Part shown: positions 1 through 10,270 of the stretch, piece by piece
How positions within the stretch are numbered: position 1 is the first letter of the stretch
How the letters are laid out: each line of letters begins with the position of its first letter
Assembly: GCA_003116975.1 (NCBI GenBank)
Contig: BGKB01000150.1
Coordinates: forward strand, 62,001-126,000
From: Aurantiochytrium sp. KH105
Lineage: Eukaryota > Sar > Bigyra > Thraustochytrida > Thraustochytriidae
DNA: 64,000 bases
Direction: 5' to 3'
Made by a program: the position numbers and the translations under genes
The notes under the pieces: model-generated
The model's input: the letters and a program-made list of their open reading frames with translations, nothing else
What the model was told of the DNA's origin: nothing
The model's database searches: none

Positions 1-3000
1 CTTGCGAGGGATTCTCACGCCGCATGTTTAGCGGGGCAGGGTCTTGGTCGAACAAAAGTGAGCTCACACCCGAGGCAGCCGAACCAGCGTTTGACGGCGC
101 CGGCATCGTTGAAGATGAGAGAATAATCCCGAATAACTTTGAGCACTTTTCACGGTCCGCCGTGGTAGCCTCCGGAAGCGCCAACGACGGAGCAAATGAA
201 GCGAACCCTTTGCGGCCCAAGGAAGTTGGCAGACCAGCTTTTCGGCGCAAGAGAAAGTCGTTCGAGGGCAATCTGCTCGACGGCTCGGTCACGGCCTCAA
301 AGGCTTTGACGGAAACGGGCGCATGCAGCAAGAGATCCGTCTTGTGCAACGGAGGCGTCGCCCAAGGCGCGATATCGCGGACGGAACGCTCATGTTTTGC
401 AATCCAGGGCGCTGCAGCTGCTGTCTTGTATTTGGATCGCACAAAGTGGTAACGATCGATGACCTGCTGCAGCGAGTGCGGCGTCGCAAGCGGCCGCGAA
501 ACGAGGTGCTGCACAAGGTCCCAGCTAGGTCCAAACACCTCCACGGCGCGCAGCATAGCAACATCTTCCCAAGCCGTCCAGCTCTCGCTATCTCCGACAT
601 CTTCGTCGTTTGCAGATTTTCCCGATTTCTTTTGTGCGCCTTTGAGCCTGGCCTTAACCTTGGGAACCTGGATTCCCCAATCGATCTCCTTGCCCGTTGT
701 CGAAGAGGGCGGAGGGGCCAGACCCGGAGCCTCGTCCTCATCGTCCTGCAGCATTTCCACGTCAACTGTGGAATCGAGCCGCACCACGTCGCTCGGGCCC
801 GTCGACTCGTGAAGCTCAAGGTCAGCCGAGGAGGCGATGCTGCTAGTACGCGCATTCTTTCTCTCGATTTTGCGTTTCTTGATGCCACTCTCATCGTCGA
901 TGCTGGCGCTGCGACGCTTGACAGGCTCAATCTCAAGTGCTGACAGGTCCGTAGACATGGCCACGATGCGCTGCTTCATAAAGCTCACGGCAAATTTAGG
1001 GCGCTGTGGGACACCGGACGTGGCGTGCATCGCCCCGGAGTAACCATTACCCGCCGCCGACGTCTGTGGAGCCTGGAATCCTAGCATGGGCGGCGCGCTG
1101 GGCAGGGCCTCCTCGTGCTGCACCCCCGCAGCGGAACTGGCTTCTGGCTCAAAAGGAGGGCCGTACACATGAGCCGACGCACCAATCACCTTGCTGTCTC
1201 GTTCAAGGTCCACCAACAAACGCTCCATGTTGGCTTGCTTAGAAAGCTCTGGGTCAACCTCGTAAAAGAGCGGCTCGTAGTTGCTCGTTTGATTCAGCCA
1301 TGTCGCATCCGACATGAGTGCCTCGGCAGGTCGAGTGGTGGCGTGACTTGCCAGCGATGCCGAAGATTGAGCGTCGTCCAGCGCAGCACTTTCGTCCGTT
1401 GCCAAGCTCGAGGCAAAAAGATCCTTGCGGAGCCGACGCGTGTCGACAACAAGCAGCGAGCCGCCAAGCCGTGGATCGCTGAACTGTCGCATGTGCTCCG
1501 CAATGGTGCCTGGTTCCCGTAAGAGAGCCCGCTTCACTGGCGGCAACGGATCCTCCAAGGCCCGTTGTAAAACCTCGGCAATGTGCGCGTACGTCTCCGT
1601 CGGCGCGTCGGTAGTTGCAGTCTCTTCATCATCTTCATCTTCCTCCTCATCGTCTTCGTCATCATCATCTTCTTCCTCGAATGAATGGTCTGCGACTTGC
1701 AGGAACCCGCCAAGCAGAGGATTCGCGGAAACCTCTCGGGGGCTCACGGCTCGGAGTGCGCCGTCCAAATCACCGTGCATAAATTCTTCTTCGACAAACG
1801 CATCCGCACCAGCGGTAGTTGGGCTTGCACCTACATCTTGAGCGGTGAAATCGTCGCAATCACGGAGTCCATCCCCGCCAAAGTCGTCGACACCAAGTTC
1901 ACGCTCTTCAAGCACCACGAGGCCTGGGCCCACGGGCCGTGCTGAGCCCAAGGCGGGGGCTGCGTCGCCACCAGCCACAGCAGCAGCCTTTGCCATGGGT
2001 ACCCGTCCCAAGAATTCGTCAATGGCTTGTTTGACGTAGATGTCGAGCGAGTCCTCATTTGTGCGTTTCCGGACCCGCTCCAAGGCAGCGGTCACCTCGC
2101 TCAGTTCCATGACTTTTGGCTGACGCGCTTTTCCTGTCGATCCTTCCGTGGACTCGTCCTCTTGCGAGCCAGCAACATCGCCACCGGTAGGGTTCATATT
2201 AAAGTCGACTTGCAGGTCTTCCACATAGAATGTCTCTTCTGGTTCCCCACGCAGCGCACGTCGTCGCGCGTGTGCAAGCGCAATGGCGTCGATACGGTCG
2301 GTGAGTGGATCGTCATCGGTACCGACGCCAGGCTCATCAAGAACCACAACAGCGCTTAGTAAGCCAAGTCCATGTTCCAATTCCATTTCGGCCCCGAGAA
2401 GCGCGTCCATGTCATTTACACCAGCCATGAGGACGCGAACCTCGGACGAAGCCACAAATTGCCGAATCGCCACTGCCAAAGTACCGGGAGCGCTCGTGCC
2501 TTCAACGCGCAAGTAGCGAATGCGACTCAAGGTCAGCATCGCTTGCGCGGGAAGCAGCAGCGCTGGATCGTGGGCGACCACGAGGATTTTCCGCGTGCCA
2601 AAGTCAAGCGATGCTAAACGCCTTATGACGCCCGGTAAGGACTTGATGACCCCAGAGAGTTCAGGGCGAGGGTTAGATTTGGCATTTAAGCCCACATGCA
2701 GAGCAGACTCGGCGAAAGCGCCTCCGCCCAAGACAGAAACACACACTGATACAACGCCGATATCGGGAAGAATAGAGAGGACTCTTCCCTCTGTTGGCAC
2801 GAGGTTGTTGGTATATTTTTGGCGAAGAGCGAGCTGCATGCTTGAAGCAGGGGTCTTTGGCTTTGTTGATACATTGAGAGCCGCAGACATTGCAGCGTTC
2901 ATGCTGGGCAGAGCCGTGTCAAGAGGAGGTTTCCATGGTTTGAGCGACTCTGCTGCGCCGCCATTGTCGTCGTCCTTGTCCTCGGCAGTTTCACTGTGCT

Positions 3001-6000
3001 TCTTGCTGCGTTCCCATGCGAGAAAGCCGGGCTCGATGCGCTGTAGACCTGCGGCCATTTTGGCTGGTGTGATGCCGTGCGCCCGGAGGACCTCAAGGCT
3101 CGAATCATCCGCAGCACCAGGCGATTCGTAAAGACCCAAATGTGCCGAGCGGATTTGCCACGGGTAGACGGCAATTTGCGGTAGACCCCGCGCAGAGAGA
3201 GCTGCGATCTCATTAGCGACGGCACTCATGGCGAAAGCGCTTCGTTCAGCACGAGGGAACATTGAGTCCGGGTGGCAGCCGACGGAGAAGAGGCACATGC
3301 TATACATGCCAAGATGACGGGTCTTTGTATCTCGATTACCCCGAGGCGTCAGTTTTTGCGTTAATTTGTTGTATGCCGAAAGCAATCGATCCTTGTAGAC
3401 AACCTGAAGAGGCGTAGGTCCAAAGTTCTTTGTCTCTCGGTCGACATCGACATCGTCAATCCCAGTAATATCCTGGGACCGCCTGCAAAGCGTAAATGCC
3501 TGGACGCAGTCACGCCACGCATTTGCAGACTTCTTGGAAGCCCATTGCTTCTCTTTGCTGGAGCTTCCCAAAAATGCAAAGGGGAGAAGGAAGAAGGCAA
3601 TGTTGGTGGCGTTCGCCTTGGCCTCAGCCTCGTTCGCGGTCACGGCCAGGCGCATGGTACTGCGAAGAAGAGGCAGACGCCGTAAAACGACGACCTCTGG
3701 GTCCACTACAGTGCCCTCGTCCTCGTCTCCATTCTCTCCGTCATCATCCTTGGTGCCAACGACGGAAGGGCTTGCAGCGACCCCCTTGGCCTCTGCGTGG
3801 TCCTCATCGGCGTCAGCGTCGGCAGCAGCCTCGGTTTGATCCTTGTCAATATCGACGAGATCCCACACAAGCGTGTGCCATCTTTGACGGCTAAGAGCTG
3901 CCTCGTTCGTGGCAGCCTCCTCCTGGGTGAGAATGGTAACTCCCGGTTGTGGATGACTTGAGGCAGCGTGAACGCGCCGCGTGACTCTGAGTGCGGGACA
4001 ATAGTTGAGCAAATGGAGACGCCACTGAAAAGCGCGAGCTGGCGTTGTGACGATGAGGTGAGGCCCCCAGGCGCCGACCTCCCCGGCGAGAAGGCCAAGA
4101 AAGGCCACGACGACAGCCTCTTTGCCAAGACCGCGATCATCTGCAAGTACGGCGCCAAGCCGTTGTCTGTGCATGGAGGCCAGCCAGTGCAGAGCGACTT
4201 GTTGGTGAGGGAAAAAAGCTTCGAGCGCTGAGGGTGGCATGAGACGAGGAGGCACGCGAATAGGATCCCCCTTGTTCCGTGCCTTGCACACGGCACGAAC
4301 GGCGCGCGCAAGCGCTGCAAACGCCTTGACGCGTGCAGTGAGATCCTTTTGCGGAATAATAGGCAGCTTCTCAGCGAGACCGCGAATGCTGCGGCCCATC
4401 TCCTCTTCGTCAACATCCGAGGCGACCTCTTCCTCCTCCTCGTCCTCCTCCTTGTCGTCAATGTCGTCTGCCTCCTCGTCCTCTTGATCCACGTGTTTAG
4501 CTTCATTCATTTCAGTGTCGTCATCGACGACTTTGGCGTGGTTACCTTTTCTTGCACTCTTTCCGTTCGCGTTAGCGCTATCTTGGGGTGTTGCAACGTC
4601 TGAGGATCTGTCTGCCATTTTCTCGTCCTCCTCGTCTTCTTCATCTTCGGCGTCAACAGGTTCGGTGCCGGGTCGCAGACCACGTTTGACACGAGCGGTC
4701 ATACGTCGAGGGCGCATAGCGTCTGCCACAACATCTTCAACGGGCCTTTCCAGGTCGCGGGACAGCAAATACAATTCCGTGGCACCAAGATTATCCCCAT
4801 CCGGAAATAAACGCTCCTGCTCGGCAATGGACGCCTCGTCATCTGCCCAAAGGTCTGTTTCTTGTGGGCTACCTTTTGCGTTGTCAATATCCTGCTCGGG
4901 TTCATAATCGTCGTCGCCCTTCTCGTCGTCGTCGACAGCCATGAGTTTTGCGATACTATTGTGTGCGGCACGTGTTGCTCGATTGTCTTCCTCCTCAAGC
5001 TCGCCATTCGTTTCACCCTCGCTAACCTCATCCGCTTTCCCGGCAGAGTCGTCCACGGGTTGCGTGTGAGCAGGGGGCCAAGGCTGAAGCCAGCTCGAGG
5101 AAGACGAAGAAGAAGAAGAAGAAGAAGAGATGGCTGACGCGATGGCGAGTGAGGCTGCGTGGTACTTCCGCGCGCGCGTCTCAATGTCTGCCTCTGTTTG
5201 CACCAGCTCTGCAAGTTTTTCGTCGATGGGTTCATCGGCTTCGGAGTGAAGTACTTCCAACGCGGCCTCCCCTCGTGGGCCTGATCCATCTACTTTCTCG
5301 GTACGGTCTGGCACATAGCGAATGCGGTCAAAGTCAAGTACTTGTTTGGTCACGGGCCGTTTTGATTCACGGGCGTTGCGGAGCGTGGCATCCCAAAAGC
5401 GGCACACATGCGTGGCCACAAGGTCACTAATTGACTTGTGGCGCTCTTCGAGTCGTTTGGCGGCAAGCTCGCGCGCGATTTGGCGCTCCGCGTGCTGTAC
5501 CTTGGCCGCGTACGCAAGTCGCGAGGTGACGCTTCCTTTAAATTTGCGTTCCTCAATAAAGTCAGTTGCCATCCACATCATCTCTTCCAAGACCGTGTCC
5601 CAATGCGAGCGTGTCCGTGGTGCTTCCGGCTGGATAATCATGGCTGTGCCGAGGCTCGCGCGGAGCTTGGCGACGCGGGCAACGTGCACCTCGCGTTGAG
5701 CCATAAGCGCCTTGCGCTTCGAGAGAAAGTCGAGCAATTTGGCATTCATTTTGCGCTGACGTGCGGCAAGGGGTTTCTTCTCTTGCCTCTTGCGCTTGAC
5801 GCCGGCGGTCTGGGCGCTGGCGCTGAGAGCCGAGACGGTGCTACCGCTGCGCTGTTTGTTCGTCACAACCCCTCCAGCAGAAGCGGCGAGATGTCCTCCG
5901 CCCCCTGCAGCGGCAGCGGCCGTCGCAGAGGCAGAACCGGCGGCATTGGCCGTGCCAGCTCTCGCGCCACCGCCGCCACTCCCTGTGGCAGCAGACGTGG

Positions 6001-6178
6001 CGCCAGCCGCAGCATTGCTCTTCTTCTTTGACGCAGACGAAGCTGACTGCTGCGAGGACAAGGACATTTTCCGCTTCATCTTGCTCGCGCTTGCCTTTTT
6101 GCTGGCCGCGCTCTTCGTCGAGGCCTGCGAGGCGGACTCGCGGGCCCCCGACCTGCCATCCGCGCCGGGCGCCGGCAT
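1..6178 (-). CDS. EP400: EP400/EAF1-like chromatin protein with degenerate SNF2 ATPase, C-terminal end outside window
   Basis: One frame stays open from the ATG at 6178 to the window edge, at least 2059 codons with no intron. A low-complexity basic N-terminus precedes an HSA domain (residues about 188-270, with SHWDTVLEEMMWMATDF), the module that recruits actin and Arp4 in EP400, SWR1 and EAF1. Long acidic tracts follow. A SNF2-like body starts near residue 650 (PHQQVALHWLASM, then GAWGPHLIV). Its ATPase motifs are altered: Walker A reads DDRGLGKEAV instead of DExGLGKT, the DEAH-box position reads VWDLVD, and the TGTPLQN position reads VTANEAE. A C-terminal helicase-like lobe (about 1180-1320, with RYLRVEGTS and DRIDAIALAHARRRA) also lacks the usual motifs. 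A SANT/Myb-like domain (about 1865-1915, ESWTAWEDVAMLRAVEVFG) comes near the C-terminus. HSA-SNF2-SANT is the EP400/Domino order, and yeast EAF1 has HSA-SANT only. Inferred role: scaffold of a NuA4/TIP60-type acetyltransferase complex, probably without remodelling activity. It is transcribed divergently from the 7540 gene. Confidence 0.82.
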   Translation of the reverse strand, partial: MPAPGADGRSGARESASQASTKSAASKKASASKMKRKMSLSSQQSASSASKKKSNAAAGATSAATGSGGGGARAGTANAAGSASATAAAAAGGGGHLAASAGGVVTNKQRSGSTVSALSASAQTAGVKRKRQEKKPLAARQRKMNAKLLDFLSKRKALMAQREVHVARVAKLRASLGTAMIIQPEAPRTRSHWDTVLEEMMWMATDFIEERKFKGSVTSRLAYAAKVQHAERQIARELAAKRLEERHKSISDLVATHVCRFWDATLRNARESKRPVTKQVLDFDRIRYVPDRTEKVDGSGPRGEAALEVLHSEADEPIDEKLAELVQTEADIETRARKYHAASLAIASAISSSSSSSSSSSSWLQPWPPAHTQPVDDSAGKADEVSEGETNGELEEEDNRATRAAHNSIAKLMAVDDDEKGDDDYEPEQDIDNAKGSPQETDLWADDEASIAEQERLFPDGDNLGATELYLLSRDLERPVEDVVADAMRPRRMTARVKRGLRPGTEPVDAEDEEDEEDEKMADRSSDVATPQDSANANGKSARKGNHAKVVDDDTEMNEAKHVDQEDEEADDIDDKEEDEEEEEVASDVDEEEMGRSIRGLAEKLPIIPQKDLTARVKAFAALARAVRAVCKARNKGDPIRVPPRLMPPSALEAFFPHQQVALHWLASMHRQRLGAVLADDRGLGKEAVVVAFLGLLAGEVGAWGPHLIVTTPARAFQWRLHLLNYCPALRVTRRVHAASSHPQPGVTILTQEEAATNEAALSRQRWHTLVWDLVDIDKDQTEAAADADADEDHAEAKGVAASPSVVGTKDDDGENGDEDEGTVVDPEVVVLRRLPLLRSTMRLAVTANEAEAKANATNIAFFLLPFAFLGSSSKEKQWASKKSANAWRDCVQAFTLCRRSQDITGIDDVDVDRETKNFGPTPLQVVYKDRLLSAYNKLTQKLTPRGNRDTKTRHLGMYSMCLFSVGCHPDSMFPRAERSAFAMSAVANEIAALSARGLPQIAVYPWQIRSAHLGLYESPGAADDSSLEVLRAHGITPAKMAAGLQRIEPGFLAWERSKKHSETAEDKDDDNGGAAESLKPWKPPLDTALPSMNAAMSAALNVSTKPKTPASSMQLALRQKYTNNLVPTEGRVLSILPDIGVVSVCVSVLGGGAFAESALHVGLNAKSNPRPELSGVIKSLPGVIRRLASLDFGTRKILVVAHDPALLLPAQAMLTLSRIRYLRVEGTSAPGTLAVAIRQFVASSEVRVLMAGVNDMDALLGAEMELEHGLGLLSAVVVLDEPGVGTDDDPLTDRIDAIALAHARRRALRGEPEETFYVEDLQVDFNMNPTGGDVAGSQEDESTEGSTGKARQPKVMELSEVTAALERVRKRTNEDSLDIYVKQAIDEFLGRVPMAKAAAVAGGDAAPALGSARPVGPGLVVLEERELGVDDFGGDGLRDCDDFTAQDVGASPTTAGADAFVEEEFMHGDLDGALRAVSPREVSANPLLGGFLQVADHSFEEEDDDDEDDEEEDEDDEETATTDAPTETYAHIAEVLQRALEDPLPPVKRALLREPGTIAEHMRQFSDPRLGGSLLVVDTRRLRKDLFASSLATDESAALDDAQSSASLASHATTRPAEALMSDATWLNQTSNYEPLFYEVDPELSKQANMERLLVDLERDSKVIGASAHVYGPPFEPEASSAAGVQHEEALPSAPPMLGFQAPQTSAAGNGYSGAMHATSGVPQRPKFAVSFMKQRIVAMSTDLSALEIEPVKRRSASIDDESGIKKRKIERKNARTSSIASSADLELHESTGPSDVVRLDSTVDVEMLQDDEDEAPGLAPPPSSTTGKEIDWGIQVPKVKARLKGAQKKSGKSANDEDVGDSESWTAWEDVAMLRAVEVFGPSWDLVQHLVSRPLATPHSLQQVIDRYHFVRSKYKTAAAAPWIAKHERSVRDIAPWATPPLHKTDLLLHAPVSVKAFEAVTEPSSRLPSNDFLLRRKAGLPTSLGRKGFASFAPSLALPEATTADREKCSKLFGIILSSSTMPAPSNAGSAASGVSSLLFDQDPAPLNMRRENPSQ

Positions 6179-7539
6179 CTCCGCTCGCGCACGACGCGCG
6201 CAGCGCCTCCAACGTTCTCGCTAGCTATCGCTCGCCTTGCCTTCTCCTGCCTAATCTCGCCCTTGCCTGGCCTTGATTTCTCGACTCGTCGGTCTATCCG
6301 CGCTTCTTCGAGGGCCTCCCGCGCGCGCCCTCTCCCATGGACCGCGCGCACGGCCGCCCCGCGCTCGGCCGCGCTCTCGAGCGCGGAGCGAGCGCCGGGC
6401 GCGACGGCGAGCGCCCCCGAGCGGCAGGCTCGGCTCGACTCGACTCGAGGAGGGAGGGAGCTAGATAGATCGGCCAAAAAATTCAAAACAGCCCGCGCCG
6501 CCGCCGCGCCGCGCCGCGCCCCGCCGCGCCGCCCGCCAAGCGCGCAGCGCAGCGCCGCTCGCAGCGCCCGCGCCGCCCGCCGCGCCGCCCGCCAAGCGCC
6601 GCTCGCCGAGCGCGGGCTGGGCTCGCCTCGGCCGGCAGTTTGGATTTGATTGCCTTTTTTTGCCTCCTCCCTTTCCTCGCTTTCCTCTTCTTTTTTTCTT
6701 TTTTTTCTTCTTCTTCTTCGCCGCCCGAACCGGCCTATTTCGAGAACAAGGGGGCTATCGCGGATAGGGGCCCCCGAGACCCAGATCGCCGTCGCCGCCG
6801 ACGAGGACGAGGATGAGGACGAGGACGTGCTTCGTCGTGGGGTGAGCTTGGGTGGAAAGTCGGGGCAGGAGCAGCTGCAGCTACGAGGATTGACTTTGGA
6901 TTTGGGCCTAGGCTTGTGCGTGGCCCCGCAAATCTGTCTGAGACAGCGGAAAAATTTTTAGTGCTATGAGAAAGGTGGAGAGGCCTACGCGAGCGAACAC
7001 AACAAACTACAAAGGCGAAGTCAAGGCGGCAAGTGCGACCTCGAGAAGCCATCACGATCACCTTGGTATGACGAAGCACCCCCCAAAAAGGTCTTCGGCT
7101 ACGGAGTGAAGGATCGCCGCGTACTCTGGCAGCTTTCAAGGTGGTTGCTTGGGTGCTTGGCACTTGAGGTTGCTTCGTCAATCAACCAAAATCAAAACTG
7201 CCTACAGAGATCGCCCGCGAGCGAGCTCTCGCGGGCGCGACGGAGCGGGCGTGAAGAAGCAGCCGTGAGCGGTAGCGACGTAACGCGACGCGACGCGCTA
7301 GCGATCTCGCTCGGCGCTTCTGCTCGCGCTTGCGCAGAGAGCAGAGCAGGCGGAAGCGCAGTAAAAGGAGTCGTCGGGATCGTATCCTGTTGCCTCATCT
7401 TCTCTTCGTTTCATCCTGAGACTTGGTGGGCCTGCCGCTTCGTCCCCGCTTCGTCGGCCGCCGCGTGTAGAGCTAAAACGCCACGGGTGCTCTGGCCGGC
7501 GTGACGCGACGTGCTTCATAGCTTGCTGCGCAAGTCGTC
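6179..7539. other. Intergenic region between divergent genes
   Basis: This 1.36-kb stretch separates the divergent EP400-like and ubiquitin-like genes. It contains very GC-rich, purine/pyrimidine-skewed low-complexity DNA around 6340-6640 and a T-rich run near 6650-6720. I see no convincing coding sequence. It presumably holds both promoters and 5' leaders. Confidence 0.5.
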
Positions 7540-8103
7540 ATGACTTCGCCTTCCATGCATGCATTGACGGTGAAAACGAGGCTGCAAGGCACCAGGGATA
7601 GGCTCGCCATGCCCTCCTCGGCCATGAATGTATGGATCGCGGGGTGTGACGGCGGCCTTCACGCAGCAACCTCGAGGCCAAATATTGACACGGTGCTCAC
7701 GATCGCTTCAAAGTCGCACGTCGAAACAAGAGACTGTTTTTTCACTTGTAATGGGAGACCTCTTCGACCTGCTCTAACTCTTGCGGACAATGGTATTCGC
7801 AAGGGCGACACGATCGAAGTTCACAGACGTCTTCGAGGAGGACTTGACATCGTCCTTTCTGTTCTTATTGGCATAGCGGTCGTGCTAGGGCTCATTGCAT
7901 TGTATTATATTCTACCCAAGATCGTGGCCTGTCTGGGATGGTTCTGGCGCAACGTTCTCGCGCCACCTCTCTTTTGCCTCTATGACTATATCTTTACACC
8001 CATTGGTCATTGCATGCGAGACTGTGTCTTTTCTACAAAGGAAGCCTGCTGCGACTGCTGCGATTCTTGTGATGTCTGTTGCAACCCCTACAAGCGCGTA
8101 TAA
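7540..8103 (+). CDS. Ubiquitin-like domain protein with membrane segment and Cys-rich tail
   Basis: 187 residues from the ATG at 7540. Residues about 29-101 form a ubiquitin-like beta-grasp domain. Its last 32 residues align without gaps to the end of ubiquitin, keeping the positions equivalent to G47, L50, T55, L56, D58, I61, K63 and T66 and ending in RLRGG (97-101). The equivalents of K48 (Arg) and I44 (Thr) are changed. The chain then continues directly into a strong membrane segment (about 102-126, LDIVLSVLIGIAVVLGLIAL), a second hydrophobic stretch (about 133-157) and a Cys-rich tail (ACCDCCDSCDVCCNPY) suited to palmitoylation or metal binding. It could be a membrane-tethered ubiquitin-like protein, or a precursor cleaved after GG. 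Ubiquitin-fold homology is seen directly; processing and role are inference. An alternative start is M24 or M29. Confidence 0.7.
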   Translation: MTSPSMHALTVKTRLQGTRDRLAMPSSAMNVWIAGCDGGLHAATSRPNIDTVLTIASKSHVETRDCFFTCNGRPLRPALTLADNGIRKGDTIEVHRRLRGGLDIVLSVLIGIAVVLGLIALYYILPKIVACLGWFWRNVLAPPLFCLYDYIFTPIGHCMRDCVFSTKEACCDCCDSCDVCCNPYKRV

Positions 8104-8659
8104 GTCTTTCCTCGATCAACAGGTGATTCGATGTGGCCAGGAGCACTGTCCATCACTTCATCACCTCGACTTGCGACGTTGGCGAGCTCGTCGGCGAGCC
8201 GATTTGTAGCTGGTACAAGAGCACGGTATTCTGCGTGGTTGAGACATGGACCTCTGTTTATTTGTCTTGCTCAAGAAACAATCAATCAAGTCAGAGCACC
8301 ATCGCACAAAAAAAAAAACGATCTTGGCCGAAAGCAGGTCTAGCGCTTGAATCCTATGCAAGTAGAAGATAGCCCTACCATATCCTCCCTCTTCCTTCCC
8401 ATCCCACCCTTCAAAAAACCAACAACAAAAGAATCTGTGTCCCTCTTTCTGAAGTTGTGATTCCACACGCGAAATAAAAAAGTTGCCGTTAAAAAAAAAA
8501 GGCCTCCGAGGCCGAGTCCCATCGGCGATGCAGAAGCCAGGCGGTGAAGGTCCCATCAATCCCGAAAGGAAAAGCTTGTGAGCGTGCGTATTGTGCGCGA
8601 GGGGACAAACGCGCGCGCGTGACTAATTGACTCTTGACGATTTACTTGGATCAGGGGCG
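8104..8659. other. Intergenic region
   Basis: This 556-base stretch between two co-directional genes includes A-rich runs near 8309 and 8490 and a short alternating CG run near 8611. A TTG-initiated extension of the downstream frame (8627) was ignored in favour of the ATG at 8660. No other gene is evident. Confidence 0.4.
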
Positions 8660-8984
8660 ATGGGAGATCCGACGTCAAACGCAACGGCAACGGCGGAGGA
8701 AAAGGACTCTGCAGCGGTTGAGCCAGCTGTGCCTGGGAACGCCAAGACGCAAGCCCCGGTTTCTGGCATAGACGAAGCGTCGCGACGCGACGATGAGTCT
8801 GAAACGTCCGAGTCATCTAGTGAGGATGATGGCGAAGCCTCTGTCCTCAATCAAGAAGAGGAGGCGAAGATCTTTCGAGTTGAAGAGGCGCAGCTTGAAG
8901 AGTACGTTTCCATGTCTTGCCCGTCCTCGCAATCGCAAACACTCTTTTGCATCAGAACAAGAAGACTCACGCCTTTGATTCATG

Positions 8985-9027
<43 letters not shown>

Positions 9028-10270
9028 TCGATCCATCTTGCTCATATACAGATACCTTACGCAGATGCGTCTCGACAGTCTCTTTGAAGAGCTTGTTGAA
9101 GAATTGCTCGTTGACACGCCAGACAACCCGGTCAAATACATGATTGATTATCTGTTCGCGCAATTTCCAGACCAGGCACGAGAGTCCTCGTTTGCAAACA
9201 CTTTCCCCACGTCAGCTAATTTCGTTGGTGGCGGGATTCCCTTGACTGGTTTAACCGCGCTTTCAATCGGACACGATGCGGATGAGCTTGAGAACGAAGA
9301 GGAAGACGGCCCCGTTCCTGATGTGACACTCCCCTTTCAGCAAACACAGGGCCGCGAAGCAAATTTGCCGCCTCGCAGACGTGGGGCCGTATGCGCACGT
9401 ACCATTACAGAAGATTCCGCAAGCACGAGCCTTCCTGCCTTGAAGGACTCCACACCTGAAGATGGTCCAACACCCGGAGAGCTTCAAATCCTTTGCGATG
9501 CGCTTGAAAAAGACTTTTACTTTTCACAGCTCAACGCGAACGAGCGCCGTGCGGTCCAATCGGGCTTCAGAATAATGAATTTATCGCAAGATGAGACAGC
9601 TTGCAGACAGGGCGAAACGTCCACTCAGTTCTTTGTTGTGGCCGCTGGTGAATGCAAGCAAGCGCTTCGGGATGAGCACATCCTCACGCTTAAGGCCGCA
9701 ACATGCTTTGGCCATGCCAACCTTTTGCACGCCGCCAAAGCAGTGACGACGGTCACTGTGACGAGCGAGAAGGCACGAGTCTTTTCGATTGACGCGGAAA
9801 AGTTCAGATCGCTGCTCCACTCGTTTCGTAAGAGCACACGAAGCGAATCACATGCCGCTGTGCTGCGCAAGGTACCTGTTTTTGGCACGTCTGTGCTCTC
9901 AGACGTTGAAGTTGGACGTCTTGCGGCCGACGTAGCCACTGTGGAGAATTTTAGCGTGGGTGACATTCTCGTAAGACAGCATGCGCCTTCTGACACAATG
10001 TATGTAATTTTGGATGGAACAGCGCGTTGCGAGCAGCGACTGTCTGCTTCGGATCGTGGTCAGCTCGTGACGTGCTTTGGCGCTGGCGACTGGTTTGGGG
10101 AAATTGCGCTTATCACAGACCGACCACGAGCAGCCTCGGTCATCGCCGAGACGGCAATTACTGCACTCGCTATTGCAAGAGATCGCTTCACGCGCGTGTT
10201 TGGCCCGCTCACAGAAGTTTTGTGTCGCGACGAGGTTCTTTTTCGTCGTTTCGTTTCCGATAAATTGTAG
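8660..10270 (+). CDS. PRKAR1: cAMP-dependent protein kinase type I-like regulatory subunit (two exons)
   Basis: Exons 8660-8901 and 9052-10270 join to give 486 residues. Splicing restores QLEEYLTQMRLDSLFEEL, and the 150-base intron keeps frame without a stop, so an unspliced reading looks open. After an acidic N-terminus, residues about 79-115 resemble the RIIa/DPY30 dimerization-docking fold (YMIDYLFAQFP). Near residue 188 lies RRRGAVCA, matching the pseudosubstrate inhibitor site of type I subunits (RRGA-hydrophobic). Two cyclic nucleotide-binding domains follow. Domain B (about 360-480) has an intact phosphate-binding cassette, FGEIALITDRPRAAS. Domain A (about 245-345) has FGHANLLHAAKAVTT, missing the ribose-binding Glu and the phosphate-binding Arg. 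Expected role: holds the PKA catalytic subunit inactive and releases it on cAMP binding, here probably sensed by one site only. Family call is firm. Confidence 0.88.
8902..9051 (+). other. Spliceosomal intron of the PKA regulatory subunit gene
   Basis: It begins GTACGT and ends ATACAG, is 150 bases long (phase 2) and contains a CTTT tetranucleotide array. Translating through it gives a low-complexity FFLSFFLSFF segment that interrupts the dimerization domain, whereas removing it restores a continuous helix. This is the only clear intron in the window. Confidence 0.85.
8985..9029 (+). repeat. CTTT tetranucleotide microsatellite inside an intron
   Basis: About 11 uninterrupted CTTT units form a pyrimidine-rich tract 22-66 bases before the 3' splice site. 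Confidence 0.95.

Follow-up and report, generated by a model that had tools for sequence, protein, structure and literature searches.

A 64,000-nucleotide stretch of the genome of Aurantiochytrium sp. KH105 (assembly GCA_003116975.1, contig BGKB01000150.1, positions 62,001 to 126,000; the contig is called C150 and the stretch the window below) carries on its minus strand a gene for an EP400-like protein in which the threonine of the P-loop and the catalytic glutamate of motif II have been lost. Judged from its sequence, this gene probably encodes a scaffold subunit of the EP400/Eaf1 class, belonging to a histone acetyltransferase complex of the NuA4 type and bearing a catalytically dead motor. 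The open frame begins at window position 6178 and continues past the window edge (window 1..6178, 2335 amino acids in total); its final 827 coding bases, with a Q/H-rich C-terminus, lie at C150:61174-62000. A second copy, of 2331 amino acids, is found on contig C80, and in both cases the same long frame lies next downstream. The copies differ in 89 alignment columns, 12 of which are gaps. Since most SNF2 matches in the 76-Mb assembly occur as near-equal pairs on two contigs, we infer that the two copies are haplotypes.

Motif losses and domain layout

An initial annotation of the window had described an EP400-like protein with an intact SNF2 fold layout and ruined ATPase motifs. As it had stated, motif I (4118..4132; this and the feature coordinates that follow are window positions on the minus strand) reads GLGKE in place of GLGKT in both copies, the P-loop lysine being retained and the threonine replaced by glutamate. 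GLGKT is kept in all 20 other SNF2 frames read from the same genome (one per pair among the stronger of 56 match rows, six weaker loci being left out). At the motif II position (3845..3883) the protein reads RWHTLVWDLVDID, where human EP400 has RWKCLVIDEMQRV; the letters of this region are VWDLVDID, in which the aspartate is kept and the catalytic glutamate lost. An acidic, alanine-rich stretch (residues 779-842; 3653..3844), mostly gapped in the profile alignment, separates it from the motif III position (3617..3652), which was located from the sequence and the profile alignment and reads RLAVTANEAEAK (RLLLIDSPLHNT in EP400), with TANEAE in the window copy and TADEAE in the other. The earlier readings of WDLV at the DEAH-box position and TANEAE at the TGTPLQN position were thus correct. 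A candidate motif VI region, DRIDAIALAHARR (2261..2299), lacks RxGQ and is placed by order only; the altered arginine-finger region that had been claimed near the C-terminus is not securely alignable. Canonical motifs might have been located elsewhere in the chain, as the initial annotation had allowed for, but the patterns G[LS]GK[TS], DE[AGSM][HQ], [TS]GTP and R[ILMV]GQ had no match in any of the six frames of window positions 1-6300.

Only part of this motif ruin is special to the protein, because human EP400 is itself off consensus at motif II (VIDEMQ), motif III (LLIDSPLHN) and motif VI (DRIGRC). Human EP400 nevertheless retains GLGKT and the DE pair of motif II, and this canonical ATP site of EP400/Domino-A is missing here. 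Peculiar to the Aurantiochytrium protein are the loss of the P-loop threonine, the loss of the motif II glutamate and the absence of R[ILMV]GQ, with a motif VI that is unrecognisable and an eroded C-lobe.

A frameshift or misassembly was considered and rejected, as motifs I and II are altered identically in two copies whose frame is open throughout. Introns that would restore the motifs were likewise rejected on sequence grounds, motif I being situated within a gap-free aligned block and the four canonical patterns being present in no frame.

The domain layout was examined against Pfam cut-offs of 23 bits for HSA, 24.9 bits for SNF2 and 24.4 bits for Myb/SANT. An HSA domain of the EP400/SRCAP/EAF1 kind (PF07529, 41.1 bits) occupies residues 184-248 (5435..5629) and includes EAPRTRSHWDTVLEEMMWMATDF. 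It is followed by an SNF2 N-lobe block comprising the Q-motif region, motif I and motif Ia (PF00176, 33.6-38.4 bits; residues 658-737, 3968..4207), and then, at the place expected for SANT after the motor, by a SANT/Myb-like match (PF00249; residues 1865-1911, 446..586) that lies below the cut-off. The last ~285 residues are largely Q/H-rich. In these four elements the order resembles the EP400 plan, which the available part of PMC11995519 gives as HSA, motor, post-motor domain, linker, SANT, hydrophobic domain and QP-rich tail. The HSA-SNF2-SANT order proposed in the initial annotation is thus borne out for HSA and for the start of SNF2, both above cut-off, and its last element is sub-threshold.

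The remainder of the motor is far less distinct. The PF00176 match spans only the first 82-116 of 290 profile positions, ending at position 86 with the window part of the protein (33.6 bits), at 82 in the segment search and at 115-116 in the six-frame search, and Helicase_C gave no Pfam match in the protein. A candidate C-lobe start (RKILVVAHD...RYLRVEGT; residues 1192-1249, 2432..2605) is a weak match at the place expected from the profile order. Hidden Markov models (HMMs) were built from EP400, SRCAP, SWR1, INO80 and the genome's own SWR1-type protein, and the scores were compared with 500 shuffles. When excised, the motif II region scored 3.1 bits (exceeded by 1 of 500 shuffles) and the C-lobe region scored 0.8 bits (exceeded by 2 of 500), both matching at the expected profile places; within the full protein the two scored -0.5 and -3.2 bits. 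Alignment by hhalign of the whole region to a profile of seven SNF2 motors from the same genome was co-linear, and sub-regions aligned to that profile scored no better than the top one of 40 shuffles. Residues 730-1460 alone, searched against PDB by phmmer, retrieved nothing at E<=10. These results are compatible with an eroded, possibly two-lobed body, for which 'intact layout' is too strong a description.

Placement among EP400, SRCAP and SWR1

When the window part of the protein was searched against PDB, human EP400 was retrieved with an E-value of 4e-29 and the next non-EP400 chain with 5.6e-11. As SRCAP was missing from this whole-protein list and yet was matched by segments of the protein, the segments were compared separately. 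EP400 was the top match for both: the HSA segment scored 52.7 bits with EP400, 42.1 with SRCAP and 27.8 with EAF1, and the N-lobe segment scored 67.8 with EP400, 57.6 with SRCAP, 51.1 with a SMARCA-type chain (9jao_C), 47.3 with SWR1, 46.1 with an ISWI-like chain and 39.2 with INO80. The HSA of the genome's own SWR1-type protein, by comparison, matched EAF1 at 15.2 bits. SRCAP, second-best for both segments, shares the INO80-family type of N-lobe; however, the SRCAP/SWR1 proteins keep their ATPase motifs, and the EP400-like protein has neither canonical motifs nor a best match to SRCAP/SWR1. In this genome the SRCAP/SWR1-like protein is encoded by a different gene (see below).

Trees were computed from the trimmed HSA core and N-lobe of nine sequences, four of them with HSA, and five topologies were compared under three models. 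Grouping with EP400 was preferred in the approximately unbiased (AU) test (AU 0.75-0.83). One alternative is that the gene arose as a lineage-specific duplicate of SWR1, or by an independent fusion of Eaf1 and SWR1, that its motor then decayed, and that its likeness to EP400 is convergent or a long-branch effect. In the nine-sequence comparison, the topology deriving the gene from the own SWR1, within the SWR1 group, had AU values of 0.022-0.036, although it was not rejected by the Shimodaira-Hasegawa (SH) test (0.051-0.088). The HSA core is also nearer to EP400 (32/79 identical) than to SRCAP (25/79) or the own SWR1 (23/79), and the EP400 plan is followed further along by the SANT-like match and the Q/H-rich tail. 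On the other hand, the N-lobe is nearly as similar to the own SWR1 (30/75) as to EP400 (31/75), and HSA alone slightly favours the own-SWR1 grouping, by 0.33 log units. A tree joining the two Aurantiochytrium genes outside EP400, SRCAP and SWR1 was not rejected (AU 0.20-0.29), nor was own-SWR1 grouping in four-taxon trees (AU 0.069-0.075) or own-SWR1 origin with the untrimmed alignment (AU 0.42). We regard such a duplicate or fusion as unlikely. Kinship with EP400, the identity given in the initial annotation, is moderately supported by these comparisons and is the best-supported placement, yet it is unproven because some alternative trees, a rival among them, were not rejected.

Selection between the two copies

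Differences between the two copies were used to examine selection on the gene. Over 2327 codons of the whole frame the ratio of non-synonymous to synonymous differences per site (pN/pS) was 0.212 (Fisher p 4.4e-29), and in the motor body (residues 650-1420) it was 0.22 (p 2.2e-10). A block of 361 codons containing the N-lobe had 6 non-synonymous and 17 synonymous differences (pN/pS 0.113), against 0-0.018 in 361-codon blocks around motif I of four active SNF2 N-lobes, which together had 2 and 77 (6:17 vs 2:77, p 0.0015). The larger body (28:42) differed from the active N-lobes with p 4e-9, a comparison that is not size-matched. HSA (residues 184-270) had no non-synonymous and one synonymous difference, too few to test. 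The motor thus looks to be under relaxed but non-neutral selection.

These values bear on the possibility that the motor region is decaying and has no role, the gene being maintained for its HSA and SANT-like ends. The weaker constraint on the body, the acidic stretch separating motifs II and III, the weak C-lobe and the absence of significant constraint on residues 650-740 would all be in line with this. However, residues 741-1420 still have a pN/pS of 0.207 (Fisher p 5.2e-10), and such constraint implies that selection acts on these residues for some purpose, at the least their folding or spacing; we regard a role-less remnant as improbable.

An additional scenario is that ATP is still bound, or slowly hydrolysed, at a reorganised site in the EP400-like protein. 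The lysine of GLGKE and the aspartate of VWDL are retained, and recombinant human EP400, with its IDEMQ and IDSPLHN, is nonetheless reported in excerpts of PMC7239659 to be able to incorporate H2A.Z. EP400, however, has GLGKT and the DE pair intact, both of which are broken here; R[ILMV]GQ occurs in no frame, and the N-lobe block is less constrained than four active motors. We consider residual use of ATP to be rather improbable.

The proposal of an EP400/Eaf1-class scaffold with a dead motor has to be held against a number of observations. The retained P-loop lysine makes nucleotide binding possible. The SANT-like match scored 17.1 bits in the window part of the protein and 20.8 as a segment alone, both below 24.4, and this segment matched no EP400 or EAF1 chain when searched against structure chains. 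The C-lobe is barely recognisable. Own-SWR1 grouping stood unrejected in the four-taxon trees, as noted above. Constraint was not significant in the recognisable block itself (residues 650-740; 4 non-synonymous and 4 synonymous differences, p 0.21). The whole-frame values of two active SNF2 genes were 0.146 (L001/L002) and 0.027 (L003/L004), and as the former is near 0.212, the contrast with active genes holds for the motor blocks only. Finally, a search of viral and prokaryote contigs, where a eukaryotic orthologue is not expected, yielded no relatives of the gene, none of the 6 and 15 pattern matches being confirmed. All of these count against the proposal, which we still consider the most probable.

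A separate SWR1-type gene and the evolution of NuA4 scaffolds

The initial annotation had called for a search of the same genome for a separate, active SWR1 ATPase, and a candidate with canonical motifs was found. An HSA model search returned two genes, each on two contigs; INO80- and BRG1-type genes were absent from its results, so that it could have missed a further gene whose HSA is divergent or split, a separate EAF1 included. The second gene is SRCAP/SWR1-like (SRCAP 766.8, SWR1 703.5, INO80 460.5 and EP400 453.6 bits) and carries canonical GLGKT, DEAH, TGTPLQN and RIGQ; SANT had no match in the part of it that was read. The NuA4/SWR1 subunit families TRRAP, EPL1, MYST (six matches, read as three genes), EAF6, ING, DMAP1, YEATS, YL1 and BCNT are also present. 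This supports in part the predicted NuA4-type complex apart from H2A.Z exchange: families of both subunit sets are there, as separate NuA4 and SWR1 complexes would require, but their presence alone is no proof that the complexes are separate.

Within the SRCAP/SWR1-like gene, shortly before the ATPase, an acidic unit of 60 residues is repeated 3.8 times in tandem (L017 4814-5497, contig C61; period 180 bases, 95% matches), with MSVEELRKKYG-like motifs; it is possibly an expanded histone-binding region. After the motor, residues 1858-1940 of the protein encoded at L017:3441-9998 gave WW (25.0 bits) and F-box-like (19.1 bits) matches, both below cut-off. To our knowledge, WW and F-box-like matches are unusual for an SWR1 ATPase.

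Two other frames were noted in the window, both on the plus strand. The frame at 8627-10270 has cyclic-nucleotide-binding domains in two stretches (PF00027, 96 bits), as in the regulatory subunit of protein kinase A, and an internal repeat coding FFLSFFLSFF, which may be a short intron through which the frame remains open. The frame at 7540-8103 encodes 187 residues; its ubiquitin-like match is weak (18.5 bits, sub-cut-off), and a hydrophobic stretch and a cysteine-rich tail come after it.

In the proposed scaffold, the actin/Arp4 and DMAP1/Swc4 module would dock on the HSA helix, while TRRAP/Tra1 would be held by the SANT-like domain. The SNF2 body in the middle, having lost residues required for ATP hydrolysis, would be retained as a spacer or protein-binding body, and H2A.Z exchange would fall to the separate SRCAP/SWR1-type ATPase, much as humans have SRCAP separate from EP400. 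With the catalytic parts decayed while the gene is selected, the protein probably does no more than scaffold a complex that acetylates histones.

This arrangement can be compared with known NuA4 scaffolds. According to excerpts of PMC7239659, fly DOM-A is an ATP-independent acetyltransferase scaffold whose H4K12 acetylation does not depend on its own ATPase activity, and yeast Eaf1 functions as before when the Domino ATPase is inserted between its HSA and SANT (citing Auger 2008); this fly and yeast work suggests that the motor of EP400-type proteins is dispensable for acetylation. The EP400-like protein would fit as a natural end-point of the behaviour of DOM-A, with the scaffold kept, the motor dead and exchange carried out by SWR1. 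Yeast and plant EAF1, a NuA4 scaffold without ATPase, is also matched by the HSA of the EP400-like protein, itself proposed to be a scaffold without ATPase activity; the same excerpts describe EAF1 as having HSA and SANT with no ATPase domain between them, whereas here a body of ~770 residues with an SNF2-derived N-lobe intervenes. Plasmodium PfEAF1, likened by description only, is another divergent scaffold of the EAF1 type, from a purified NuA4-like complex, but in the available part of PMC11036802 it is without SANT and 4.7 times the size of its yeast homologue.

In the titles, abstract openings and excerpts surveyed, covering part of the literature matches, no EP400 with a dead motor was found; p400-like proteins are already listed for an amoeba and 'molds' in the accessible text of PMC6089883. 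The initial annotation saw in the protein an intermediate state that would inform how EP400 and EAF1 arose, which is a claim about direction; the gene may be an intermediate toward Eaf1 or may have decayed independently, and the small tree prefers EP400 kinship but does not reject an alternative. More tentatively, the HSA-motor-SANT plan of EP400 may predate animals and Eaf1 may be its reduced form. NuA4 scaffolds would then have come from an ATPase with a motor that decayed by steps, from EP400 with its odd motifs, through a protein with a dead motor such as this one, to Eaf1 with no motor; this runs opposite to the suggestion that p400 was formed by combining Eaf1 with Swr1, and we see it as a possibility rather than as the expected outcome. 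If the scaffold reading is true, the gene would be a natural, selected protein with a dead motor, the evolutionary counterpart of the fly and yeast experiments, and the direction of EP400/Eaf1 evolution would become testable in a protist.

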